From contig NZ_ATUF01000004.1 in assembly GCF_000420065.1 (NCBI RefSeq), positions 124,001-188,000 on the forward strand: 64,000 bases of DNA, in the 5' to 3' direction. Shown here piece after piece: positions 1,551 through 14,844 of this stretch (positions within the stretch are counted from its first letter, which is position 1; every line of letters begins with the position of its first letter). This DNA is from Varibaculum cambriense DSM 15806. Lineage in GTDB: Bacteria; Actinomycetota; Actinomycetes; Actinomycetales; Actinomycetaceae. The notes beneath the pieces were generated by a model that was not told the origin of the DNA, searched no databases, and saw only the letters and a list, made by a program, of their open reading frames with translations. Position numbers and translations under genes: made by a program.

Positions 1551-1576
1551 GATTAGCTGGTTGCTATGCGCTAATC
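1551..1576. terminator. Possible bidirectional terminator hairpin
   Basis: GATTAGC (1551-1557) and GCTAATC (1570-1576) form a 7-bp stem with a 12-base loop in the convergent gap between the chorismate mutase stop and the acyl-CoA ligase stop; the right arm overlaps the latter stop codon. No T-run, so only moderately convincing. Confidence 0.35.
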
Positions 1577-3457
1577 GTCTTGCAGGGGACCACCGTAGAT
1601 CGCGTTAATTTCGTTTTCAAATCGCTTTAGCACCACGGAACGTTTTACCTTTAGCGAAGGAGTCATCATACCGTTCTCCAAAGAAAAATCAGTGGTTAAT
1701 ACCCGGATCTTGCGGATAGATTCGGCGCGAGAAACCTTTTGGTTAGTGCGTGCTACTGCCCGCTCTAGAGCCTTTAAAACTGCGGGGTGGCGAGCAGCGT
1801 CAGAAATATCCATCGGTGGCAAGTTGTGGTTGCGCAGCCAGCCCGGAAGCATTTCCGCATCCAAGGTAACTAGGGCAGCAATGAAGGGGCGCCGATCTCC
1901 CACCGCGACCACATTCGAGATTAGCGGGTGTCCGCGCAGGCCATCTTCCAATATTTCTGGAGAGACATTTTTGCCCCCGGCGGTCACAATAATTTCTTTC
2001 ATTCGACCGGTGATATATACGAAACCCTCATCATCAATCCAGCCTTTATCTTCGCTATGTAACCATCCGTCTTCGGTATAAAGCTCGGCGGTTTCTTTCT
2101 CTAAATTGAGGTAGCCAGGAGACATAGCGTCACCTTTGAACAGTACTTCGCCCTCGTCAGAGATACGTACTGCGATCCCGGGAACTGGTTGTCCTACCGA
2201 GCCGATCTTGGCGCGGGTCGGTACATTCACGGTAGCCGGTCCTAGCGTCTCGGTCAGGCCGTAGCCTTCACAAACCGTGACCCCAATACCGCGGAAGAAA
2301 TGCCCTAAGCGTACCGATAGGGGACCGCCCCCAGAAATAATATATTTTGCATTCCCACCCAAAAGATTAGTCAGGCGCGATAACACCAGTTGATAAAATA
2401 CCTGTCGACGAATTTTCAGCGCCCGGGAAGGTCCCTCGGGGGCATCTAGAGCCTTGGAATAGTCAATAGCAGATTTAGCGGCCATCCGGAACAACCGTAG
2501 CTTGATTCCGTTTCCTGCTGAGGCGTCGGCCGCGTTATAAATTTTTTCCAGAACCCGTGGCACTGCCAGCAGATAGGAGGGCTTAAAAGATGCTAGATCT
2601 GCCAGTAGATTCTTGGTGTCGGGTACTAGCCCTAGCACGCCGGGACCGAGTAACGCTCCCCAGGAAACTAGACGCGCGAGCGCATGGGCTACCGGCAAGA
2701 AAAGTAGACAGCGCGTGGTTTTCTGCATCCCGATCTCCGCCAAATAATCTAAAAGATTCGGTAGCAAGGCCGTGGCGTTACGTTGAGTAATAAGCGTCCC
2801 TTTAGGACGCCCGGTGGTTCCGGAAGTATAAATAATGGTGGCAATAGTATCGCCGGTAATCTGGGCGTTATAGGAGTCGATGACTGCCGGAGCAATTTGT
2901 CGTCCCGCCTCAATAATGGTCAGTAAATCCCCGGCAGCCAGTGAATATATGCGGCATTTACGATCCGCCCGCGCGGCTACCGCCTGGATTAATTCTTGAG
3001 AGGACTGGTTCGAGGCAATTGCATAACGAATATCGGAGTCCTGTAAAATCCATTCGATTTGTGCGGCGGAGTCAGTTTCGTAAATGGGAACCGTAACAAT
3101 CCCGATTGCCAGCGCGGCCATATCGATCAGGGTCCACTCATAGGAAGTAGGGCCGTGTAACGCTAAGCGGTCTCCTGGTTTTAGGCCAATACCAAGTAAG
3201 CCGCGAGAGACTGAACTGATCTCGTCCCAGAACTCGCCGGCAGAAACCTTGCGCCACTGTTCCCCGAGCAGGCTCTTTTGCTCGATAACTGTTTGGTTAG
3301 GATCCTCGGTGACGCGGCGGCGAAACAGCGACACGATATTGTCGTGTTCGGAGCGAATCTTGGTCGCCGGCATCGAGAACTGAGTCAAGGTACCGGGAGT
3401 TTTCCCAGCTACTGCTACGGTTCCTGGCGGGAAAGTTATGCCCTTGTCTGTGTCCAC
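1571..3457 (-). CDS. Long-chain fatty-acid-CoA ligase (AMP-forming), FadD15-like
   Basis: An ANL-superfamily enzyme of 628 residues that should activate long-chain fatty acids with ATP and CoA. The P-loop motif YTSGTTGRPKG is at about residues 210-220, the EGYGLTET adenine motif lies in the middle, and the C-terminal GRMKEIIVTAGGKNVSPE hinge carries the catalytic lysine region. The A8 region reads HSEDKG where relatives, including the paralogue at 13027, have KTGDIA; the Asp is kept. I chose GTG at 3457 because AAGGAG sits six bases upstream; an in-frame GTG at 3484 lacks any ribosome site. It is followed at 19 bp by nothing co-directional upstream except valS, which ends just beyond 3504, so the two may be co-transcribed. 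Confidence 0.9.
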   Translation of the reverse strand: MDTDKGITFPPGTVAVAGKTPGTLTQFSMPATKIRSEHDNIVSLFRRRVTEDPNQTVIEQKSLLGEQWRKVSAGEFWDEISSVSRGLLGIGLKPGDRLALHGPTSYEWTLIDMAALAIGIVTVPIYETDSAAQIEWILQDSDIRYAIASNQSSQELIQAVAARADRKCRIYSLAAGDLLTIIEAGRQIAPAVIDSYNAQITGDTIATIIYTSGTTGRPKGTLITQRNATALLPNLLDYLAEIGMQKTTRCLLFLPVAHALARLVSWGALLGPGVLGLVPDTKNLLADLASFKPSYLLAVPRVLEKIYNAADASAGNGIKLRLFRMAAKSAIDYSKALDAPEGPSRALKIRRQVFYQLVLSRLTNLLGGNAKYIISGGGPLSVRLGHFFRGIGVTVCEGYGLTETLGPATVNVPTRAKIGSVGQPVPGIAVRISDEGEVLFKGDAMSPGYLNLEKETAELYTEDGWLHSEDKGWIDDEGFVYITGRMKEIIVTAGGKNVSPEILEDGLRGHPLISNVVAVGDRRPFIAALVTLDAEMLPGWLRNHNLPPMDISDAARHPAVLKALERAVARTNQKVSRAESIRKIRVLTTDFSLENGMMTPSLKVKRSVVLKRFENEINAIYGGPLQDD

Positions 3458-3503
3458 TTGTTTCTCCTTAAACCAGTTAATCACGACTTTAGCCTACCCT
3501 AAG

Positions 3504-6191
3504 TTACTTCCGTACTTTCTTCGGGGGAGGGGTGCCCAACACCGCATCTTCCGTGGTAACCTGCAGGTCGGATCCATTGTTTACCTGGACTTTAACCGTC
3601 CCCGTTAACGAGGCTGCAGCATCTAAATCAGCTCGTACCGCCGACAGATTTTCTGCGGACCACTCATCGGCGTAAACAATGGTTACCTGATCAAACGGGG
3701 TGCGCTGGCCAACTTTAGCTTCTGACTTTACCTTCCGAAGTACGCTCAGCGTGTCGCCGGCCAGTTTTAGTAGTTGCGCATCTCCTGCGGCAGCTTGCAG
3801 GGCGGGAGTAACCTGCGGCCAAGGTGCGGTGTGCACAGAGCCGCTGCGGTACCAGGACCATACTTCCTCGGCAGCATAGGGTAAAAATGGTGCCAGCAGG
3901 CGGGTTACGTTATCGACCACAATTGCCAGGGCTGTCCGCGCCGAATCCTGCACCTCGCTGTCCCAGCTCCCAGCGAAGTTGTGAGCCCGATCTTTAACTA
4001 GCTCTAGATAGTTGTCACAAAAATCCCAGAAGAATGATTCAGTTTGCTCTAAGGCCCGAGTATGGTCGTAGCGTTCAAAGGCTTCGGTAGCAGTGATAAT
4101 CACCTCGTTCAGTCGGGCAAGCACCGCTTTATCTAGGGGAGTAGTTACCTTTGCGGGGTCAAGACACAGACCCGCGTCCTCGGTCATCGAAAGCGCAAAT
4201 TTGGAGGCGTTGAGCAGTTTCATAGCCAGGCGCCGCCCGATTTTCATTTGCGCTTCCTCAAACGCAGTATCGGTACCCAGGCGAGCGGCAGCTGCCCAAT
4301 AGCGCACCGAGTCTGAGCCGTGTTTTTCTAGCAGCCCCATGGGGGTAACTACATTGCCTTTAGACTTCGACATCTTCTTGCGATCCGGGTCCAGAATCCA
4401 GCCCGAAATTGCGGCGTTCTTGAATGGTAGGGCGCCGAACTCCAGGTGCGCGCGCACTACGGTAGAGAACAGCCAGGTGCGGATAATGTCTTGACCCTGG
4501 GGACGCACATCCATGGGGTAAACCCGCTTAAAGAGGTCTTCATCGCGCAGCCAGCCGCCCGCAATTTGGGGGGTGAGCGAAGAGGTCGCCCAAGTATCCA
4601 AAATATCTACTTCGGCGGCAAACCCGCCGGCTTTCCCGCGTTGCTCCGCGGTAAATCCGGCGGGAACATCGCTGGTGGGATCAATCGGTAAGGATTCTTC
4701 CGCGGGCATCAGTACCTGGTCATAACTAACCTCACCATTCTGGTCAATGCGATACCAAAGCGGAATCGGTACCCCAAAGAAGCGCTGGCGAGAAACCAAC
4801 CAGTCGTTATGCAGGCCATGTACCCAGTTGGAGTAGCGTACCTTCATAAAATCGGGATGGAACTTTAGCTCCTCACCCCGCGCTAGTAGCTCACTATTAA
4901 GGTTGTCGCGGTGTCCGCTAAGAGTGTAGTCGCTGCCACCATTGCGGATATACCATTGCCGGGACATTACGATCTCTAGAGGACGGTCACCTTTTTCAAA
5001 GAAATTGGTTTGCCGCATAGTTTTTTGCGGTTCTCCCTGCAGCTCTCCGCTCTCTTTGAGGGCATCCACTACGATTTGTCGGGCAGAGAAAGTAGTCTTC
5101 CCGCGAATCGCATCCATTAGTTCTTTACCAGTTGGATCGGTAATCCAATCAGTGGGCTCGTGGGTGATCCGGCCATCTTTTGCCAAAATCACTCGGGTAG
5201 GTAGTTCTAGGTCTCGCCACCATTGAACGTCGGTGACATCACCGAAAGTACAGCACATGGCGATGCCGGCGCCCTTATCCATTTCGGCTGCCGGATGCGC
5301 CAGTACCGGAACCTCTACGTTAAAGCCGGGACTGGTTACCGTTTTGCCAAATAAATGCTGGTAACGCTGGTCATCCGGGTGTGCCACCAAGCAGCAGCAA
5401 GCCGCCAGTAACTCTGGACGAGTGGTTTCAATTATTACGTCTTCTCCGCCTGCCAGGTGGAAAGCCAGCGCATGATAGAAGCCGGGGTAGTCGCGTGCTT
5501 CTAGTTCGGCTTGTGCTACCGCGGTTTGGAAAGTTACGTCCCATAGTCCGGGAGCTGCCGCTTGATAGGCTTCCCCGCGCTTAAGGTTCCGCAAGAATGC
5601 CGCCTGCGCCACCTTTTGGGAATCCTTAGAAATGGTTTGGTACTGATGCTTCCAATCCACGCTCAGCCCCAGACGCCGCCAGAGCGCCTCAAAGGACTTC
5701 TCGTCCTCTTTAGTTAGCTCTTCACAAAGTTCAATAAAGTTTTTACGAGAAATCGGCACCTGATCTCGGGCTTTCACCGATTTGGAATCCCCGTGATGAG
5801 GGGGCTCAAAATTCGGGTCATAGGGCAAGGTGGGATCACAACGCACCCCGTAATAGTTTTGGGCGCGTCGCTCGGTAGGCAAGCCATTATCGTCCCAGCC
5901 CATGGGGTAAAACACCTTTTTGCCCCGCATGCGCTGGTACCGGGCGAGGCAATCGGTGTGGGTATAGGAAAACACGTGTCCTACGTGCAAAGATCCAGAG
6001 GCCGTAGGTGGGGGAGTGTCGATGGAGAACACTTCAGAGCGTTGCGCTTCGCGGTCAAACGCATAGACCTGCTGCTCTTCCCAGGCCTGCCCCCAACGCT
6101 CTTCGAGGCCATCTACGCTTACTCGCTGAGGTACCTGGGGGGCGGGTAAGTTTAGATCGGTTAAATCCCGGTGATCGTGGGGATTACTCAT
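3504..6191 (-). CDS. valS: Valine--tRNA ligase
   Basis: Class Ia synthetase of 895 residues that charges tRNA-Val. The HIGH-type signature HVGH is at residues 69-72 within PPPTASGSLHVGHVFSYTHTD, and KMSKSKGN is near residue 607. The segment MGWDDNGLPTERRAQNYYG and the W-rich catalytic region match the second ValS type that actinobacteria share with archaea and Rickettsia, rather than the E. coli type. There is no clear long C-terminal coiled-coil arm. The ATG at 6191 is preceded by AGGAGA with a six-base spacer. Its 3' end lies 46 bp from the start of the acyl-CoA ligase gene. No T-box is visible in the 254-bp upstream gap. Confidence 0.97.
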   Translation of the reverse strand: MSNPHDHRDLTDLNLPAPQVPQRVSVDGLEERWGQAWEEQQVYAFDREAQRSEVFSIDTPPPTASGSLHVGHVFSYTHTDCLARYQRMRGKKVFYPMGWDDNGLPTERRAQNYYGVRCDPTLPYDPNFEPPHHGDSKSVKARDQVPISRKNFIELCEELTKEDEKSFEALWRRLGLSVDWKHQYQTISKDSQKVAQAAFLRNLKRGEAYQAAAPGLWDVTFQTAVAQAELEARDYPGFYHALAFHLAGGEDVIIETTRPELLAACCCLVAHPDDQRYQHLFGKTVTSPGFNVEVPVLAHPAAEMDKGAGIAMCCTFGDVTDVQWWRDLELPTRVILAKDGRITHEPTDWITDPTGKELMDAIRGKTTFSARQIVVDALKESGELQGEPQKTMRQTNFFEKGDRPLEIVMSRQWYIRNGGSDYTLSGHRDNLNSELLARGEELKFHPDFMKVRYSNWVHGLHNDWLVSRQRFFGVPIPLWYRIDQNGEVSYDQVLMPAEESLPIDPTSDVPAGFTAEQRGKAGGFAAEVDILDTWATSSLTPQIAGGWLRDEDLFKRVYPMDVRPQGQDIIRTWLFSTVVRAHLEFGALPFKNAAISGWILDPDRKKMSKSKGNVVTPMGLLEKHGSDSVRYWAAAARLGTDTAFEEAQMKIGRRLAMKLLNASKFALSMTEDAGLCLDPAKVTTPLDKAVLARLNEVIITATEAFERYDHTRALEQTESFFWDFCDNYLELVKDRAHNFAGSWDSEVQDSARTALAIVVDNVTRLLAPFLPYAAEEVWSWYRSGSVHTAPWPQVTPALQAAAGDAQLLKLAGDTLSVLRKVKSEAKVGQRTPFDQVTIVYADEWSAENLSAVRADLDAAASLTGTVKVQVNNGSDLQVTTEDAVLGTPPPKKVRK

Positions 6192-6368
6192 CGGCCATCT
6201 CCTATTTCAATATTTCTCTGTTTACCGGCTCTGCCACCTCTCTAGGCGCAGAAACTAGTGTTTACATACCCTACTAAACTACTCGGTTTCGCAGGCCAAC
6301 CCCAAAATGTTTCGGACGTCCTCGACCTCGTAACATAACTATAATGACTGGTAAAAGCCAAGAGCCTG

Positions 6369-6416
6369 CCACCTAGAAACCTGAATCAAGCTCAGGAAAT
6401 CTGGGTGACAGGCTCC
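6369..6416 (-). terminator. Hairpin downstream of the 6446-8455 gene pair
   Basis: GAGCCTGCCACC and GGGTGACAGGCTC form an outer stem with one mismatch, and CCTGA/TCAGG form an inner stem. On the minus strand the structure is followed by CTTGGCTTTT, so it is a plausible terminator for the membrane-protein operon just before the valS promoter region. The remaining 6192-6368 gap shows no other recognised element. Confidence 0.5.
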
Positions 6417-6445
6417 GCTTATGCGTCACAGTCAGAATTTAATGA

Positions 6446-7405
6446 TTATTCTTTGATTTTTCCTCCGTTTTCGCGAGCAATCTGCTGGTTATAGGGAGTA
6501 TTCCAATAAACTTCTTGGGTAAAGGGATTGCGCCTGGTGGAGCGTACTTTATAAATGTGATACCCGAACACTGCCACATTGGCCACTAGGGCGGCTGCCG
6601 AAAGTAGCAGCATCGCCGTGGGGTTGTGGGCGCTGCGGTGGGCAAACAGGGAATCTTGCATAAAGTGCGGGAAGGTTAGCACTATTGCCGACCAGAAGGT
6701 CAAAGTATAAGCCCGGTATTGAATCCAGGCTCCTTTCCCAAAGGCCAGGAAAGCCGGAATGGTGCAGGAGGCTAACAAGGCTACCCCCGAATACCAGGCA
6801 CGGTCAGCTAAGCAGTTATAGACGTAGGCAACATTCCACAGATCATAGGCAATAATCCAGCCGATAGTCAGATCGCCCCAAATAATCTGTTTGTTCTTGC
6901 CTCTGGATACGTAGATTCCCATCCAGCCCGAAATCATTAGGAAATTTAGGATTCCCGCGATTCCGTTCATAATGTTCCACGGACCGCCCCAGGTAACCAT
7001 GCCTTGTGAGGGATCCACCCCGTGGATTCCGTAGCACTGAAAATCCCGAATCACGGCCTCGATAATGTTTATCGCCAAAATAAAAGGCGGGATACACAAG
7101 TACCAGCGTTTATCACGCAACTTCGGGAAATACTGCAAGGCGACCAGGGATAATGATCCAATCAACGCCGAGTATTGTTTCACGATCGGGAACCAACCGT
7201 CCGAGTTGGTTCCGGCACGCGAGTAGGGCCACCAGAAAATTGTCAGCGCCACCGGGATCACGATGAATACCGCAATCGCCACCCATTTATAGCGGATCGC
7301 TAGCCAGGCCATTACCGCCAGACCCGCGATGACCACCAGTAGCATTAGGTAGTCATACCACTGACCAAGCTCAAAAAAGAATAAAGTCGGATAGTCCGGT
7401 GTCAT
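6446..7405 (-). CDS. Multi-pass membrane protein, paralogue of 8673-10019 (DUF5692-like)
   Basis: A 319-residue protein with about nine hydrophobic segments. I recall this type of sequence under the label DUF5692, but could not check it. Recognisable blocks are DGWFPIVKQYSALIG, INIIEAVIRDFQCYG, GGPWNIMNGIAGILN, GWIIAYDLWNVAYVYN and CTIPAF, rich in Trp, Asn and Asp within membrane segments, which suggests a functional site inside the membrane rather than a simple anchor. The ATG at 7405 is three bases after the stop of the SRPBCC gene, so translation is probably coupled. Function is unknown; transport or an intramembrane enzyme acting on a lipid-like substrate are both possible. Confidence 0.8.
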   Translation of the reverse strand: MTPDYPTLFFFELGQWYDYLMLLVVIAGLAVMAWLAIRYKWVAIAVFIVIPVALTIFWWPYSRAGTNSDGWFPIVKQYSALIGSLSLVALQYFPKLRDKRWYLCIPPFILAINIIEAVIRDFQCYGIHGVDPSQGMVTWGGPWNIMNGIAGILNFLMISGWMGIYVSRGKNKQIIWGDLTIGWIIAYDLWNVAYVYNCLADRAWYSGVALLASCTIPAFLAFGKGAWIQYRAYTLTFWSAIVLTFPHFMQDSLFAHRSAHNPTAMLLLSAAALVANVAVFGYHIYKVRSTRRNPFTQEVYWNTPYNQQIARENGGKIKE

Positions 7406-7408
7406 CAG

Positions 7409-8455
7409 TTATTTCGCCGCCTTCTTGCCCCAGCCGGGCAGATAGGTTTTCTCTTTCTTTTGGCGGATCTGTTCCTCCCAAGAGAACTCCGGTTCTTCCC
7501 AATCGGTGAAATAGTCGCTATCGACTACTTCAGCCCAGGGGGAGTTGGCGGAGGTAGGTGGCCAAGCGGGGTTGTCGGTTACTGGAGGACGTACCTCATT
7601 TACTGCTGGGTCTTGCCGGCCGTAGCGCAGCCACTGGTTATGGGTCTCTTCGTAAAGCTCGGTGCCATCCCAACGTCCTGCGGGAGTATCGTACCCGAAC
7701 AGCTTGCCCCCTAGTACTGCCCGCTTAATCCGGCCTTGCCATTGCGGTTTCTTGCGGAACTCGGCAACCCGCTTTACATAGAGGTTCTGCAGGTGCGCCA
7801 TGCACCCTCCGATTAGTTCAATATTGATCCAGTTAATCGCAGCCGCAAACTTGGTATCGGGTTCAAATCCAATCCTCCAGTGGTTGATTAACCGGCAGCG
7901 GTCGCCCTGGAGGGGGATTAGGTAAAAACACCAGGCCGCCGCGTAGTGCTTCATCCCGGGGTAACGGAAAGCGAATGATCCGGGTGCCCGCGGCGGGTGT
8001 TTGGTATCGACCCATTGGGAAAGATACTTACCGGGAACTACGTCCGCCCATTCCATGGACATACCGGTGAAGTCAAACGCCGCGATATCGCCGGGTTTTA
8101 AGGCATCTGGCCCTTGCCACTGTTCTTGAATTTCGTAGGAATTAAAGAAAGGTAGCCGGGCAAAGGTGCGTTCTAGGAACTCTGAAGAATAGGATCCGGC
8201 TTTGTCGCAACCTAACTGTTTTAGGTGCCGGTACACCGCATAGGCGGGAGCATCAATATTGATGGCATAGGTTGAGGAGCGACCATTGGAGTAGCAGCGG
8301 TCAATTAAGTCATCGGAAGGATAGTGCCACTCATTTTCTTCTTTGGTAGCGTTGCCCGAAAACTGACTGAAGCCGAACATTCCGCCGAGGGCGACGCTGC
8401 CCCCTAAAGCTCCCAGGCGCAAAACCTTTTTTATACGGCCAGATTTACTAGACAT
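7409..8455 (-). CDS. SRPBCC-fold protein with N-terminal membrane anchor
   Basis: A 348-residue protein. The basic start SSKSGRIKKVLRL leads into a hydrophobic stretch (about residues 13-30), either a signal sequence or an anchor. The body resembles the polyketide-cyclase-like SRPBCC fold: GSYSSEFLERTF near the N-terminal part, then EIQEQWQGPDALKPGDI, and a strand-rich core ending in a long C-terminal helix. SRPBCC domains bind hydrophobic ligands such as lipids, sterols or polyketides. I chose ATG 8455 because GGAG lies eight bases upstream; an in-frame ATG at 8506 has no ribosome site and would put 17 polar residues before the anchor. It is the first gene of a two-gene operon with the 6446-7405 membrane protein. 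Confidence 0.75.
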   Translation of the reverse strand: MSSKSGRIKKVLRLGALGGSVALGGMFGFSQFSGNATKEENEWHYPSDDLIDRCYSNGRSSTYAINIDAPAYAVYRHLKQLGCDKAGSYSSEFLERTFARLPFFNSYEIQEQWQGPDALKPGDIAAFDFTGMSMEWADVVPGKYLSQWVDTKHPPRAPGSFAFRYPGMKHYAAAWCFYLIPLQGDRCRLINHWRIGFEPDTKFAAAINWINIELIGGCMAHLQNLYVKRVAEFRKKPQWQGRIKRAVLGGKLFGYDTPAGRWDGTELYEETHNQWLRYGRQDPAVNEVRPPVTDNPAWPPTSANSPWAEVVDSDYFTDWEEPEFSWEEQIRQKKEKTYLPGWGKKAAK

Positions 8456-8510
8456 ATAGATTCTCCGTAGTTGAATATTTTGGGTATTTTTTAAAACAGG
8501 TAACATCGTT

Positions 8511-8527
8511 GTTAACCCTGCGTTAAC
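8511..8527. promoter_or_regulatory. Tandem GTTAAC sites in divergent promoter region
   Basis: GTTAAC occurs at 8511-8516 and again at 8522-8527. Each copy is palindromic, and they are spaced 11 bp, one helical turn. They sit in the 217-bp gap between divergent genes, just upstream of the SRPBCC gene, where an operator would be expected. The regulator is unknown and no regulator gene is adjacent. Confidence 0.4.
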
Positions 8528-8672
8528 ATTTAACCTATCATTATCTGTCGGATTGTAAGGTCTTTTGGATAGGTATTTTATGGTGACGCATCCGCAGGTG
8601 GTGTCATTTTAAAAGTTAATAAGTAAGGTCAAAGTAATCGGGCAGCGTGGCCTGGTTAAAAAAGGAATTCTG

Positions 8673-10019
8673 ATGGGATTTTTATGGGAAGTAGGCCCGG
8701 TATGGGTCTACCTTTTTTGGATATTAATTTTTGTTCTGCAAATGCTAGTGGCCGAAATGCATCGCCGTTGGACTTGGACTGCCTTTGCCCTTTGGACAGT
8801 CGGCGGAGTTTTGCTGATTCCCTATGTCATCATCCACGGGGTTCCTATGGTGGGGTGGTTTCCCTTCGGAAAATTTATTATTATGCTCGCCACGGCTACT
8901 ATGACGGCATTTCTGCTGCACTGGGGTAAACGCAATCCTCTAAAAGCTCGCCGTTATGCGATTTGGTTTGGGGTTGCCCTCTGGATCGGGCTGGCAGTAA
9001 ACATCATGGAAGCCAATATTCGCGACCTCACCATCTATTTTGAAGCTGACACCTACCGCGCCTGTGCCACCAACTTCCAATGCCTAATGGATATCGATTC
9101 CGCCCGTTCAATTTCGATGATTGAGGGACTACCGGAAACTCGCGGAATCACCGCAGCTAGTGGTTCTGTCGCTTGGTATCAAGCTGCCGCCGAGGCTTTT
9201 CAGACCAGCGGAGTAGGAATCGACCCCGCCACTGGGTTCCGCACCATCGGTGGCTATTGGAACCTACTCTCGGCCGCCGCCGGGGTGCTAAACATTATTA
9301 CTATTACCGGACTGGGAAAAATTTTTGTTTCTTCGGCAAAGAAAGGAAAGGTACAGGGCTTGATTTGGGCGGATATGGCCTGGCCTTGGATTATTGCCTA
9401 CGATCTGTGGAATCATTCTTTCCTGTACAACTCGCTTGCCGACTATACCTGGTACTGCACTCTGGCGTTACTGCTAGCTTGTACGGTACCTGCCTTCACC
9501 TGGGCAAAAGGGCAATGGATCTGGTTCCGTTGTTTCACTTTGATGTTCTGGATTGCGGCCAACAATATCCTCCCGGAACTGCTAGTGCGCCCCTCCATTA
9601 TGACTAACTACGCCACTATGAACCCAGTGGCCAATGTCGTGTGTGCCTGGTTAGCTTTGCTATCCAATGTGGCGCTGTTTGTTTATTGGCTTTACAAGAT
9701 GAAGAAACATCACCGTAATCCCTGGACAAACTGCCTCTTCTTTGAGTTGGGGGCGTTTAGAAAAGTTGTAAAGCTCTATGCAGATGACAAAGACAAGTAC
9801 TTCCTAACTGACTTCATTCCCGAAACTCCCGCCCAGCTGGGTTTGGAACCGGAATCTCCAAAGCCACCAGTAGACGGATATATCGGGTGGATGCCTTGGT
9901 GGAAGGAAGATAAACGGTATCCGAAACTGCGCACTCCGCTTTCAGTCGATCCCAAACTGGTCGAGAAAGGGATCAAGTCTGATCCGAGTTGGGATGTTAC
10001 CAAAGGAAAGGAAGTCTAA
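8673..10019 (+). CDS. Large multi-pass membrane protein, paralogue of 6446-7405 (DUF5692-like)
   Basis: A 448-residue membrane protein that shares with the 319-residue neighbour the blocks VGWFPFGKF, VNIMEANIRD, YWNLLSAAAGVLN, WIIAYDLWNHSFLYNSLAD and CTVPAFTWAKGQWIWFR. It differs by an insertion of roughly 60 residues with several Cys (region CATNFQCLMD) after the NIMEANIRD block, and by a soluble C-terminal tail of about 90 residues rich in Pro and charged residues. The ATG at 8673 follows AAGGA by six bases. It is divergent from the SRPBCC gene. Function is not known to me; the shared motifs and paired arrangement imply that both membrane proteins work on the same kind of substrate. Confidence 0.8.
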   Translation: MGFLWEVGPVWVYLFWILIFVLQMLVAEMHRRWTWTAFALWTVGGVLLIPYVIIHGVPMVGWFPFGKFIIMLATATMTAFLLHWGKRNPLKARRYAIWFGVALWIGLAVNIMEANIRDLTIYFEADTYRACATNFQCLMDIDSARSISMIEGLPETRGITAASGSVAWYQAAAEAFQTSGVGIDPATGFRTIGGYWNLLSAAAGVLNIITITGLGKIFVSSAKKGKVQGLIWADMAWPWIIAYDLWNHSFLYNSLADYTWYCTLALLLACTVPAFTWAKGQWIWFRCFTLMFWIAANNILPELLVRPSIMTNYATMNPVANVVCAWLALLSNVALFVYWLYKMKKHHRNPWTNCLFFELGAFRKVVKLYADDKDKYFLTDFIPETPAQLGLEPESPKPPVDGYIGWMPWWKEDKRYPKLRTPLSVDPKLVEKGIKSDPSWDVTKGKEV

Positions 10020-10041
10020 CTGCCTGTAAAAATGCAAAATA

Positions 10042-10053
10042 GAACGTTTGTTC
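10042..10053. promoter_or_regulatory. LexA (SOS) box upstream of uvrA
   Basis: GAACGTTTGTTC matches the actinobacterial/Bacillus LexA operator core GAAC-N4-GTTC exactly, with a further G after the right arm. It ends 13 bases before the uvrA start codon, as expected for a LexA-repressed nucleotide-excision-repair gene. Confidence 0.85.
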
Positions 10054-10066
10054 GTAGGATAGGAAC

Positions 10067-12901
10067 GTGGATGAAAAACTGGTAGTTAAAGGGGCACGGG
10101 AACATAACCTGCGTAACGTGGGTATTGAGATTCCTCGCGATCAGATGGTGGTGTTTACCGGGCTGTCCGGTTCGGGGAAGTCTTCACTGGCTTTCGATAC
10201 CATTTTCGCGGAAGGACAACGCCGCTATGTAGAGTCTCTGTCCTCTTATGCTCGCCAGTTCTTGGGGCGCCTGGATAAGCCAGATGTGGATTTTATTGCC
10301 GGGCTTTCTCCGGCGGTTTCTATCGACCAAAAATCTACCTCCCGGAATCCGCGTTCTACCGTCGGTACGATTACCGAGGTCTACGACTACTTACGTTTAC
10401 TTTATGCCCGCGCCGGGCAGGCTTACTGCCCGGAATGCGGGGAAAAAATCCAGGCGCAAACCGCGCAACAGATCGTGGATCGGCTGCTAACCCTGCCGGA
10501 AAAAACCCGGTTTCAGATTTTGGCTCCGGTGGTGCGCGGCCGTAAAGGCGAATATAGCGAACTGTTTGCGGACCTGGTGTCCCAGGGGTTCTCGGCGGCA
10601 GTGGTCGACGGGGAAACCGTGCGTCTTACTCAGCCACCTAAGCTGGAACGCAAAATCAAACACGATATTTTTGTGCGCGTCGATCGCCTAGTTATGAAAG
10701 AGGGGGTACGCACCCGACTTTCTGACTCGATTGAGACCGCCCTGAAACTAGCAGACGGACTAGTAGTGGTGGATTTTGTGGATCGAGATGTTTCTGATCC
10801 TCAGCGGTCGCGGCGTTTTTCTGAAAATCGCGCCTGCCCCAATGATCACCCCCTACAGCTGGAGGAAATTGAGCCACGTACATTTTCCTTCAATGCTCCC
10901 TATGGGGCTTGTCCAGATTGCTCCGGCCTGGGATCGCATCTAGAGGTTGATCCGGAACTGGTGGTTCCCAACCCGGAACTTTCTATCGCCGAGGGCGCGA
11001 TTCGCCCCTGGTCCACCAAAAATAAATATCTAATGCACATGGTCGCGGGGCTAGGGGAGGAACTGGGATTCGATCTGGATACTCCCTTCCGCGAGCTATC
11101 GGCCGCCGAAAAGAAAGCTCTGTTACGAGGGCGCGACTATCGGGTGAAAGTAAAGTTCCGGAATCGTTGGGGAAGAATGCGCACCTATTCTTCTGGATTC
11201 GAGGGAGCGATCCCTTGGATTATGCGCAAGCGCGAAGAAACCGAGTCCGAAGTAATGCGCGCCCGCTACGAAGGCTATATGCGCCAGGTGCCTTGTTCTA
11301 CCTGTCACGGTGCCCGTCTAAAACCGGAAGTTTTGGCGGTAAAAATCGGGAAACTAAATATCGCAGAGCTAACAAAACTTTCAATCGCTGCCAGTGGTAA
11401 ATATCTAGCGGAAGTGGAACTTACCGGACCGGCCAAGAAAATCGCGGAACCTATTCTGAAAGAAGTGCAGGTACGCTTGCAATTCTTACAAGATGTGGGT
11501 CTGGGCTATTTAACCCTAGCGCGGGGAGCAGCCACGCTTTCCGGGGGAGAAGCCCAGCGGATTCGCCTGGCCACCCAGATCGGGTCGGGGCTGGTCGGAG
11601 TACTTTATGTGCTCGATGAGCCTTCGATTGGGTTGCATCAACGTGATAATCATAAGCTGATCGAAACCCTCAAGAAGCTACGCGATCTCGGGAATACGCT
11701 GCTGGTGGTGGAGCATGACGAGGACACTATTCGCGCTAGCGACTGGATAGTTGATATCGGGCCGGAAGCCGGAGAACACGGGGGAGAAGTCCTCTATTCG
11801 GGTCCAGTACCGGGGATCGCGGATTGTAAGCGCTCCCTCACGGGGCAATATTTATCGGGGAAAAAGCAAATCGCAATCCCCGAAAAACGACGCCAGATCG
11901 AAAAAGAGCGACAACTAAAAATTATTGGGGCGCGCGAAAACAATCTCAAGAATATAGATGTTTCGATTCCTCTAGGTAAGTTAGTGCTGGTAACCGGGGT
12001 GTCGGGGTCGGGTAAATCCACCCTGATTAACCAGGTAATGTACCAGGCGCTAGCCGCGAAGCTGCAGCGAAAAAGAGTGGTTCCCGGGCGCCATAAAGAG
12101 ATTGCAGGCATCGAGCATCTGGACAAGGTGGTGCACGTAGATCAAAGCCCGATTGGGCGTAATCCTCGCTCCAACCCGGCTACCTATACCGGGGTGTGGG
12201 ATGCTGTCCGCGCCCTCTTTGCGCAAACCCCGGAAGCACAGCTACGCGGATATGGACCCGGGCGTTTCTCCTTCAATGTGAAAGGAGGACGCTGCGAGTC
12301 TTGTAAAGGGGACGGCACCCTCAAGATTGAGATGAACTTCCTGCCGGACGTGTATGTGCCCTGTGAGGTGTGTGGGGGTGCGCGCTATAACCAGGAAACC
12401 TTAGAGATTAAATATCGAGGCAAATCGGTAGCTGAGGTGCTCGATATGCCAATCAGTGAAGCGGCAGAATTCTTCGCTCCCATAAATAAAATCTCGCGCC
12501 ATCTGAATACCTTAGTAGAAGTGGGACTAGGATACCTGCGGCTAGGTCAAAGCGCCACCACCCTATCCGGTGGGGAAGCCCAACGGGTCAAACTGGCCAG
12601 TGAACTGCAGAGACGGTCCAATGGGCGCACCATTTATGTACTCGATGAACCCACCACCGGGCTGCACCTGGAAGATATCCGTAAATTAATGCTGGTGTTG
12701 CAGTCCTTGGTTGACAAGGGCAACTCGGTAATCGTGATCGAGCATAATCTGGATGTGATCAAGTGCGCCGATTGGGTGATTGATTTAGGTCCCGAGGGCG
12801 GAGACGGCGGAGGCAGGCTAGTGGCTCAAGGTACTCCGGAGCAAGTAGCAAAAGTCAAAGCTTCCTACACCGGACAGTACCTGCGCGCAATGTTGAAGTG
12901 A
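10067..12901 (+). CDS. uvrA: Excinuclease ABC subunit UvrA
   Basis: UvrA recognises bulky DNA lesions and loads UvrB in nucleotide excision repair. This is a full-length 944-residue protein with two ABC ATPase modules: Walker [10 protein letters not shown] near residue 33 and GVSGSGKST near 645, and two LSGGEAQR signatures. Zinc-finger cysteines are seen in CPECGEK, CPNDHP and [15 protein letters not shown] and CESCKG with CEVCGGARY. The start is GTG at 10067, with AGGAT six bases before it. A LexA box lies immediately upstream, so SOS induction is expected. No other uvr gene is adjacent. Confidence 0.98.
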
Positions 12902-13026: not shown

Positions 13027-14844
13027 ATGGGAGCTCCCCTTATCGATCTATTGCAATTCACTTCGGTGTCTGCAGCAGTCCTTGATCGTGCGCGCAGGCG
13101 TCCGCGGCAAATAGCGGTCGAACGTCCTTCAGTATTGGGTGCAGCTTGGGAGAAAATCTCGGCAGCTTCTCTGGGAGACGCGATCCGGGCAGCCGGTTTA
13201 GGGTGGATCGGACTGGGACTCGAACCGGGAGATGCGGTTTCTATTTTAGGATCCACCTCTTACGAGTGGATGGTTATGGATCTGGGGGCGCAAGCAGCGG
13301 GGCTGGTAACGGTACCTATCTACGAAACTGATTCCTACGAACAGGTGAAGTGGATTACGCAAAAAGCCCAGGTAAAGGCGGTTATTACCGATTCTACGGT
13401 ACAAGCCAATATGATCCGTCAGCTAGATAAAGAACCGGAACTCGCCGGGCAAATCTCGGTGGTTTTTTCTCTAGATGACTCTGGTTTTACCCGACTGCTA
13501 GAACACGGACGCGCTATTTCCCCCGCGGAACTTGATGAACGCTTAGTACAAATAAAACTTGATGACCTGTGCACTATTGTTTTTACTTCCGGGACTACCG
13601 GGCGTCCCAAAGGGGTGGAAATTACCCACGCAAACTTTTTGCGTCCCTTAAACGCGGTAATCGAACGGCGCAGTTGGAACGACTGGATTTACAACCCGGG
13701 GGCGCGGGTTATTTATTTTCTGCCAGTAGCCCACGTACTCGCGCGTTTCTTGGGATACCAGCAGCTGGTAGGACACGGTACCGCCGCATTTTTGCCCAAC
13801 CCGAAAACCATTGTGCAAGATATGCAGACCTTTAAACCGAACGCGCTGCTAGTGGTACCGCGGGTGCTGGAAAAAATTTATAACGCTGCTGATGCTACTG
13901 CTGGTTCTGGGATTAAACTGCGGATTTTCCGGATGGCAGCCCGCACCGCCGAGCAGTGGGCGCGCCTGAAAGAATCGGGCGAAGAAATTTCTTTCGGACA
14001 AAAAGTCAAGATTCGCATGGCTCGACGGCTAGTCCTAAATAAGATTCGCAAACTGATGGGCGGTAACCTGCAGGGTATCGTATCTGGGGGAGCCCCTATG
14101 GCCGAGCGGCTCGGCCGGTTCTTTATCGGGTGCGGAATCGAAGTCTTGCAAGGATATGGCGCTACCGAAACTAGTGGACCTCTGACTATGTCTGACCGGA
14201 TCGGAAATAAAACCGGATATGTGGGGCAACCGTTGCTGTGTAATGAAGTGCGTCTGGGTGAGGGCGGCGAGCTGCAGGCACGCGGAGGCTCGATTATGCG
14301 CGGCTATCACGGGGAAGAGCAACTTACCCGGGAAGCCTTTACCGAGGATGGGTGGCTAAAAACCGGGGATATCGCGCAGATCGATCCGGATGGAAACGTT
14401 AAAATTACCGGACGCGCTAAGGAAATCATTGTGACTGCCGGGGGGAAAAACGTGGCCCCCGAGGTTTTAGAAGAACGCCTGAAGGGGCATCCCCTCATCT
14501 CGCAGGTGATGGTGGTGGGGGACAATAAACCGTTCGTAGCGGCCTTAGTCACTCTCGATAAAGAAATGTTGCCCACCTGGCTGAAAAATCACGGCATCGC
14601 GCAAATGGATGTTACCCGCGCCGCCCGTGATCCGCGGGTATTGGAGGCCTTACAGCGGGCAGTCCAGCGCACCAACCGGGCAGTATCTCGGGCAGAATCT
14701 ATCCGTAAAATCAAAGTACTTACCACCGAGTGGACTACTGAAAATGGGATGCTGACCCCGTCACTAAAGATTAAACGTAATCGGATTCGGGATGCCTATG
14801 GGGAGCAAATCGAGGATCTCTACGCCAAGACAGACAAGAAATAA
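13027..14844 (+). CDS. Long-chain fatty-acid-CoA ligase (AMP-forming), second copy
   Basis: A 605-residue ANL-superfamily acyl-CoA synthetase, paralogous to the one at 1571-3457 along its whole length. It has FTSGTTGRPKG at about residues 186-196, the QGYGATETSG motif, the canonical DGWLKTGDIA motif and GRAKEIIVTAGGKNVAPE. Both copies end with the same block (RTN-x-x-VSRAESIRKI, ENGM-x-TPSLK-x-KR). The ATG at 13027 has GGAG eight bases upstream. It probably activates fatty acids for phospholipid synthesis or exchange; substrate chain length cannot be read from the sequence. The gene lies alone between uvrA and rnpB. Confidence 0.9.
   Translation: MGAPLIDLLQFTSVSAAVLDRARRRPRQIAVERPSVLGAAWEKISAASLGDAIRAAGLGWIGLGLEPGDAVSILGSTSYEWMVMDLGAQAAGLVTVPIYETDSYEQVKWITQKAQVKAVITDSTVQANMIRQLDKEPELAGQISVVFSLDDSGFTRLLEHGRAISPAELDERLVQIKLDDLCTIVFTSGTTGRPKGVEITHANFLRPLNAVIERRSWNDWIYNPGARVIYFLPVAHVLARFLGYQQLVGHGTAAFLPNPKTIVQDMQTFKPNALLVVPRVLEKIYNAADATAGSGIKLRIFRMAARTAEQWARLKESGEEISFGQKVKIRMARRLVLNKIRKLMGGNLQGIVSGGAPMAERLGRFFIGCGIEVLQGYGATETSGPLTMSDRIGNKTGYVGQPLLCNEVRLGEGGELQARGGSIMRGYHGEEQLTREAFTEDGWLKTGDIAQIDPDGNVKITGRAKEIIVTAGGKNVAPEVLEERLKGHPLISQVMVVGDNKPFVAALVTLDKEMLPTWLKNHGIAQMDVTRAARDPRVLEALQRAVQRTNRAVSRAESIRKIKVLTTEWTTENGMLTPSLKIKRNRIRDAYGEQIEDLYAKTDKK

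Follow-up and report, generated by a model that had tools for sequence, protein, structure and literature searches.

A conserved trio of two DUF5692 membrane proteins and an SRPBCC protein in Varibaculum cambriense, a candidate membrane-bound isomerase of polyunsaturated fatty acids

A 64,000-nucleotide stretch of the genome of Varibaculum cambriense DSM 15806 (contig NZ_ATUF01000004.1, positions 124,001 to 188,000; hereafter the window) carries, at window positions 6446-10019, genes for two paralogous membrane proteins, here called SHORT and LONG, and for a membrane-anchored protein of SRPBCC type. SHORT and LONG belong to the Pfam family DUF5692, and relatives of the DUF5692 and SRPBCC genes are found beside genes of the family of a characterised linoleate isomerase. 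From these gene associations we consider the odds slightly better than even (a probability of about 0.52) that the product of the locus is a membrane-bound enzyme of the linoleate isomerase type, shifting double bonds in polyunsaturated fatty acids.

Results

Genomic links to the PAI linoleate isomerase

A fatty-acid substrate is proposed because of three kinds of locus: those that pair an SRPBCC gene with PAI, those of the Paenibacillaceae that pair PAI with DUF5692, and those in which DUF5692 has genes for HypB, an isoprene-reductase-like protein and HypA as neighbours. PAI is represented here by 2b9w, the characterised linoleate isomerase of Cutibacterium acnes. According to PMC13365329, PAI makes t10,c12-conjugated linoleic acid (CLA).

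In all three actinobacterial PAI loci that were found (G328, G377 and G867), the gene directly upstream of PAI is a relative of the SRPBCC gene. At an expect value (E) of at most 1e-30, PAI occurs in 2 of 213 Actinomycetaceae genomes (G328, where it matches 2b9w at E 3.7e-141, and G377). At E ≤ 1e-40 it occurs in 1 of 198 genomes from the family of a Propionibacteriaceae record (G867), and the protein there is identical to 2b9w. A sample of the class gave 0 of 394 at E ≤ 1e-50, an empty result that is uninformative by itself. The SRPBCC relatives of G328 and G377 are about 30-32% identical to the window-type protein, and that of G867 is 56-58% identical to the G328 protein and 32% identical to the window protein (E 1e-29). 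The conserved C-terminal tail of the SRPBCC protein is partly common to the PAI-adjoining relative in G328 (L245). PAI was found at E ≤ 1e-30 in none of the 61 SRPBCC-bearing genomes described below, nor in the window's own genome; because PAI is so rare, its lack in these genomes is weak evidence.

In the Paenibacillaceae, a PAI relative lies upstream of DUF5692 itself and on the same strand in 6 of 80 named DUF5692 loci, these being all six from that family (counts out of 80 refer to the best 80 of at least 555 DUF5692 relatives); its distance from the matched start is 230-540 bases. One of these PAI relatives (L089) matches 2b9w at E 2.9e-56, and the other five are 59-70% identical to it. 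None of the three window proteins matched the flavin adenine dinucleotide (FAD)-dependent amine-oxidase domain of PAI type.

Conservation of the three-gene set and spread of DUF5692

DUF5692 was found in 21 of 59 genomes made up of the window's own and its relatives, and SHORT, SRPBCC and LONG genes stood together in all of the first 14 trio loci examined. Among the 213 Actinomycetaceae genomes DUF5692 is present in 87. The SRPBCC gene is present in 61, all within the 87 (a hand count at E < 1e-60 that includes one partial gene, in G307). LONG adjoins the SRPBCC gene at 67 of 67 loci besides the window, decayed in two, and all three genes are present at 65 of these. LONG is divergent from the SRPBCC-SHORT pair in 48 of the 65, three other gene orders accounting for 14, 2 and 1. 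The two loci short of a full trio are L198, where SHORT is broken, and L209, where SHORT lies ∼5.5 kb away. In the decayed loci two members are hit in each: SHORT and LONG are broken in L198, and SRPBCC and LONG are partial in L205, which is still counted among the 65.

The trio is a real, conserved set. The initial annotation had treated the three genes as a unit and had named homologues standing alone or among unrelated neighbours as what would speak against it. For the window-type SRPBCC gene, with LONG beside it at every locus, the unit holds and no such homologues appeared; DUF5692 genes, in contrast, are often single and have other neighbours. Distant relatives of the SRPBCC gene do occur without DUF5692. 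Outside the Actinomycetaceae, the SRPBCC gene was detected at E ≤ 1e-20 in none of 393 other genomes sampled from the class. A relative lies near 2 of 91 non-trio DUF5692 loci (L093 and L109). No further gene cluster recurs beside the trio across genera, the neighbours having been clustered without annotation.

At least 555 of 592 candidate stretches in a public genome set are DUF5692 relatives. The best 80 come from Actinobacteria, Paenibacillus, Listeria, Vagococcus, lactobacilli, clostridia, Anaerolineae, spirochaetes and Bacteroidetes, many of them in metagenome bins. Counts at these 80 loci are from tblastn; a first clustering, hampered by crude calling of open reading frames (ORFs), had assigned just 57 of them to the DUF5692 cluster. 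No relative of SHORT was found in viral contigs. Three human-gut records filed as Bacteriophage sp. (MT837410.1, MT835472.1 and MT837070.1) carry DUF5692 relatives and may be misfiled bacterial DNA. One Actinomycetaceae genome (G375) bears, besides a trio elsewhere, an array of four tandem DUF5692 copies over ∼4 kb, three near full length and one partial (L249, G375:C2:1968000-1982000, positions 4817-8940, minus strand). DUF5692 with an adjacent TetR-type regulator match was also seen on the 592-kb Latilactobacillus curvatus plasmid p1_CACC879 (CP117684.1, L190).

Layout of the locus

The three ORFs lie at the coordinates given by the initial annotation. The SRPBCC and SHORT ORFs are separated by 3 bases (7406-7408) on the minus strand, and the positions of the ORFs make LONG divergent from both, as it had also stated. 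The features are as follows.

6446-7405, minus strand: SHORT, the small DUF5692 protein; 319 residues; PF18948 at 399.3 bits; AlphaFold2 (AF2) model with a predicted local distance difference test score (pLDDT) of 89.1 and a predicted template modelling score (pTM) of 0.88
6749-6766, minus strand: block CTIPAF (C214-F219) of SHORT, from the block comparison and the model
6833-6859, minus strand: block WIIAYDLWN (W183-N191), in the sixth long helix of SHORT, from the conserved-block comparison and the model
7043-7069, minus strand: block NIIEAVIRD (N113-D121), in the fourth long helix of SHORT, from the conserved-block comparison and the model
7409-8506, minus strand: SRPBCC protein with a single N-terminal membrane helix; ORF of 365 residues, or 348 if the start is 8455
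8456-8672, no strand: divergent intergenic region between the starts of the SRPBCC and LONG genes
8673-10019, plus strand: LONG, the large DUF5692 paralogue with an insertion and a C-terminal tail; 448 residues; PF18948 at 200.1 bits
9042-9173, plus strand: insertion of LONG (about residues 124-167) with conserved C131 and C137 in 60 of 60 orthologues; predicted from charges to be extracytoplasmic

The true start of the SRPBCC gene is probably internal, at 8455 (codon 18 of the window ORF), since all five orthologue ORFs from the same genus begin there. Promoter signals over positions 6150-10120 were not above chance (5 found against a mean of 4.4 in shuffles), and terminator signals were likewise no commoner than chance. 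GTTAAC-like words, possibly a regulator site, were seen by eye to repeat at 8505-8540, in the divergent intergenic region.

Two paralogous genes of acyl-CoA synthetase type (AMP-binding) lie at window positions 1571-3484 (minus strand) and 13027-14844 (plus strand), beyond valS and uvrA. They are kept at the locus within the genus only and also occur near one single DUF5692 locus (L038). As they are not at trio loci beyond the genus, they were rejected as partners of the trio.

SHORT and LONG are DUF5692 proteins with a conserved polar core

The uncharacterised DUF family to which the initial annotation referred the two membrane proteins is Pfam PF18948 (DUF5692), of unknown function. SHORT matches it at E 1.4e-119 and LONG at E 6.1e-59, both above the cut-off of 27 bits. 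The sequence blocks that had been noticed in the two proteins are present (NIIEAVIRD/NIMEANIRD, WIIAYDLWN in both, and CTIPAF/CTVPAF), and since both proteins match PF18948 these blocks reflect homology and not chance.

Conservation was compared over four DUF5692 classes: SHORT, LONG, single-copy and Bifidobacterium. Rows bearing stops, with coverage below 80% or with identity below 55% were left out in every class, so that 63 SHORT, 60 LONG and 60 SRPBCC sequences were kept from the 67 loci. Sixteen polar or aromatic residues of SHORT are the commonest residue at a fraction of at least 0.90 in all four classes, namely N113, D121, N144, N154, D178, Y187, D188, W190 and N191, and likewise Y196, N197, Y205, T215, R231, T234 and N276. 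The fractions of the Bifidobacterium class are minimum values because its 21 rows include at least one wrong-frame translation (B_L154; the values of 0.90 suggest two). Polar residues inside helices are thus kept throughout, in agreement with the earlier suggestion that they resemble an active site. The cysteine-containing insertion described for the larger protein is also real, the 60 orthologues compared all having a C-x5-7-C pair.

In a tree, 20 LONG rows formed one fully supported group (with one wrong-frame row and long branches). The SHORT, single-copy and Bifidobacterium forms clustered and were less firmly resolved. Alignment A3 used 36 of 40 sequences chosen from the 80 loci, three having been left out for an in-frame stop and one because its length was not a multiple of three.

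Predicted structure and topology

The AF2 model of SHORT, built from 38 sequences, is confident and has nine helices of 15-29 residues. Hydropathy alone gives 6 clear membrane segments in SHORT and 8 in LONG. The modelled SHORT is an integral membrane protein, as is expected of a membrane-bound linoleate isomerase (EC 5.2.1.5). The charges suggest that the N-terminus, the insertion of LONG and the SRPBCC domain are each outside the cell.

Foldseek gave for the DUF5692 model a best E of 0.029, to a cytochrome bd-II oxidase chain with a template modelling score (TM) of 0.19, and VIA-align a best Z of 8.3, to a 7-helix receptor, a value in the range common for helical bundles. As neither match is convincing, a rhodopsin-like or GPCR-like (G protein-coupled receptor) fold is not claimed. 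A relation to cytochrome bd oxidase, of which a chain ranked first in Foldseek and subunit II gave a Pfam E of 0.094 without reaching the cut-off, was rejected as too weak.

The SRPBCC protein

The initial annotation described the gene between the DUF5692 pair as encoding a membrane-anchored SRPBCC protein. The window ORF had no match in a profile search of Pfam and NCBIfam, including PF10604 (Polyketide_cyc2; curated cut-off 27.4 bits). Polyketide_cyc2 was matched below threshold by 3 of 13 orthologues (best E 0.025), as was DUF4851 (3 of 13, best E 0.012). A profile of the wider SRPBCC family (A5) matches BexL (4xrw) at E 9.5e-4. The model of the protein is poor (pLDDT 46.5, three sequences), and its core gives Foldseek matches at E 1e-4 to 1e-3 with a TM of at most 0.27 over the query. 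The 24 matches at E ≤ 0.001 comprise aromatase/cyclases, norcoclaurine synthase, PYL receptors and a few unnamed proteins taken for the same fold; the listed top 50 are of SRPBCC/Bet v1/START kind as far as their descriptions tell. The profile relation and the fold matches bear out the earlier description. With the caution that a poor model and low TM demand, the window protein belongs on this evidence to the SRPBCC / Bet v1-like (helix-grip) superfamily.

Isoprene-reductase-like neighbours and DUF5692 in Bifidobacterium

DUF5692 has genes for HypB, an isoprene-reductase-like protein and HypA beside it in 4 of the 80 named loci, and a Subdoligranulum plasmid shows the same grouping. Of 106 DUF5692 loci searched, 14 of them trio loci, 4 have the isoprene-reductase-like protein, and no trio locus does. 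Isoprene itself is a conjugated diene. In the available text of PMC10134865, DUF5692 appears with a co-occurrence of 0.4 among genes neighbouring 988 isoprene reductase homologues, without interpretation there, and oleate hydratase neighbours are reported in some Acetobacterium.

In the family to which G054 belongs, DUF5692 scores over the cut-off in 47 of 189 genomes; the phosphoketolase of G054 matches 3ai7, a Bifidobacterium enzyme, over 825 residues (1892.5 bits). DUF5692 is present in G086, G132 and G099, which we take for B. breve, B. pseudocatenulatum and, probably, B. dentium. It has no match in G072, G077 and G082, taken for B. adolescentis, B. angulatum and B. bifidum, and only short matches below the cut-off in G090 and G078, taken for B. 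catenulatum and B. animalis. DUF5692 thus occurs in genomes that we take for those of linoleate-isomerising Bifidobacterium species. In a screen of 128 strains of 31 Bifidobacterium species, the abstract places producers in B. breve and B. pseudocatenulatum, and the MCRA hydratase was argued against (PMC4939342). That source conflicts with itself, a sentence of its Results making nearly all species producers and its abstract making most of them non-producers; the abstract is followed here. Deletion of bbi in B. breve is reported to lower CLA formation from 92.25% to 0% (PMC11812354).

Discussion

We propose that SHORT and LONG would form a membrane-embedded catalytic unit, and that the membrane-anchored SRPBCC protein would take a free polyunsaturated fatty acid into a hydrophobic pocket before handing it to them. 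Within the helices, conserved Asp, Asn, Tyr and Arg may serve as acid-base residues that transfer a proton from one carbon of the 1,4-diene to another. The double bond would shift via the bis-allylic carbon to give a conjugated diene without a redox cofactor, and the conjugated product would exit to the membrane or the medium. The likely benefit would be detoxification of linoleic acid from the host. More tentatively, DUF5692 could be the missing gene family of membrane-bound linoleate isomerases over several phyla. The Actinomycetaceae would then have a three-part version of it, in which two paralogues form a heteromer that receives substrate from a surface-anchored SRPBCC protein, itself from a family that also partners the unrelated, soluble PAI. 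The initial annotation had considered uptake, modification or sensing of a lipid, sterol or polyketide; a lipid-type substrate is supported by association through the PAI links, whereas there is no sign of sterols or polyketides among the neighbours, most of which were clustered and not annotated.

Several observations weigh against an isomerase at this locus. We know of no two-paralogue isomerase of such a kind. E116 and R120 of SHORT are replaced by other residues in the Bifidobacterium class. Two of the three PAI loci contain interrupted genes, that for SRPBCC in G867 (L264:6845-8003, plus strand) and that for PAI in G377 (L247), as if the PAI-SRPBCC gene pair decayed readily. The third of the distant SRPBCC relatives (L246, G329; L246:5409-7426, minus strand) overlaps the ORF of a different FAD-dependent oxidoreductase, possibly a further enzyme partner of the SRPBCC family, and weaker relatives (L250-L259) sit without PAI or DUF5692 matches nearby. 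The joint presence of PAI and DUF5692 in Paenibacillaceae means that DUF5692 there could be a different step or a transporter. PAI is described as a soluble intracellular enzyme (PMC12254105), which fits poorly with hand-over from an SRPBCC domain that the charges place outside the cell.

The Bifidobacterium data also fit imperfectly. The tie to the B. breve linoleic acid isomerase BBI (the product of bbi) is one of species, the genome taken for B. breve bearing a DUF5692 gene. B. dentium, for which a DUF5692-bearing genome was taken, is not among the producers in the abstract of PMC4939342, although reviews cite CLA production by it from other work (PMC12254105, PMC13365329). B. catenulatum is grouped high with B. 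pseudocatenulatum (PMC4939342) and B. animalis Bb12 is listed as a producer (PMC12254105), whereas the genomes taken for these two species are without a match over the cut-off.

A different role for the pair, unlikely overall but the most serious of the alternatives, is that of a device that takes up or flips unsaturated fatty acids. The SRPBCC protein would capture the acid outside and deliver it to the pair, and isomerases, hydratases and reductases would act later in the cytoplasm. Such a device fits every neighbour, both PAI and the isoprene-reductase-like protein with HypA/HypB. It also agrees with an SRPBCC domain predicted to face outward and with the two acyl-CoA synthetase genes that the genus has near the locus. 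Against it stand the richness and strong conservation of the DUF5692 polar core and the lack of an evident, separate and conserved enzyme partner beside the trio across genera (from clustered, unannotated neighbours). No transporter family or fold was matched either, although a missing fold match shows little. Rather less probable is another step on unsaturated fatty acids: cis/trans isomerisation of one bond, hydration, or supply of reducing power to a conjugated-diene reductase. The HypB/isoprene-reductase-like/HypA gene groups do suggest a hydrogenation pathway, PAI beside DUF5692 in Paenibacillaceae suggests a step unlike that of PAI, and the oleate hydratase neighbours in Acetobacterium point the same way. 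The scarcity of the isoprene-reductase-like protein, which is absent from the trio loci searched, argues against this, as does the lack of a recognised cofactor-binding domain in DUF5692 by Pfam search.

TetR-type regulators often accompany drug or fatty-acid resistance genes, and a TetR-type match lies within 700 bp at no fewer than 62 of 92 single DUF5692 loci, a lower bound that rests on five TetR queries. The trio might on that account be a stress device that senses or defends against membrane-active lipids without chemistry on them. We think this very improbable in view of the link to PAI and of the trio loci, 0 of 14 of which have such a match. More improbable still is a hydrophobic substrate other than a fatty acid (an isoprenoid, sterol or polyketide): SRPBCC domains bind many such ligands and the isoprene-reductase link could point to isoprenoids, but neighbours of the linoleate isomerase family occur in two lineages, and the recurrent surroundings of the trio across genera, as clustered, hold no other gene cluster.

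An isomerase would bear on an activity that has long been known from membranes and has been short of a gene. Bacteria convert linoleic acid to conjugated isomers that influence host lipid signalling. A concrete gene family, together with a partner whose relative adjoins the C. acnes enzyme, makes the question directly testable and, if the proposal is true, would give a function to a Pfam family present in several phyla. The three-gene system is not described as such in the open papers found, subscription papers being mostly outside coverage. PMC10134865 is the only paper in the open literature found to name DUF5692, and its available text holds no fatty-acid link; among the open papers listed, none joins isomerase terms with SRPBCC.

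Among known systems, the membrane-bound linoleate isomerases (EC 5.2.1.5) of Butyrivibrio fibrisolvens and Lactobacillus reuteri, which yield c9,t11-CLA, and that of Clostridium sporogenes, known here from a cited title (all in PMC12254105), are membrane-bound as DUF5692 is. The IsrA clade 9 oxidoreductases, isoprene reductase homologues with HypA/HypB, have DUF5692 as a frequent neighbour (PMC10134865, available text); they are redox enzymes, and none occurs among the 14 trio loci searched. The SRPBCC superfamily, for example BexL and Polyketide_cyc2, resembles the window protein by profile and by fold matches of a poor model, whereas the window protein is set apart by an additional membrane helix and by its long, conserved tail at the C-terminus, and falls below the Pfam cut-off. 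The closest tie is to PAI, which has a relative of the SRPBCC gene directly upstream and whose own relatives stand upstream of DUF5692 in Paenibacillaceae. PAI and DUF5692 likely carry out the same kind of reaction, PAI as a soluble flavoprotein of the amine-oxidase family and DUF5692 as an integral membrane protein that matches no such family.

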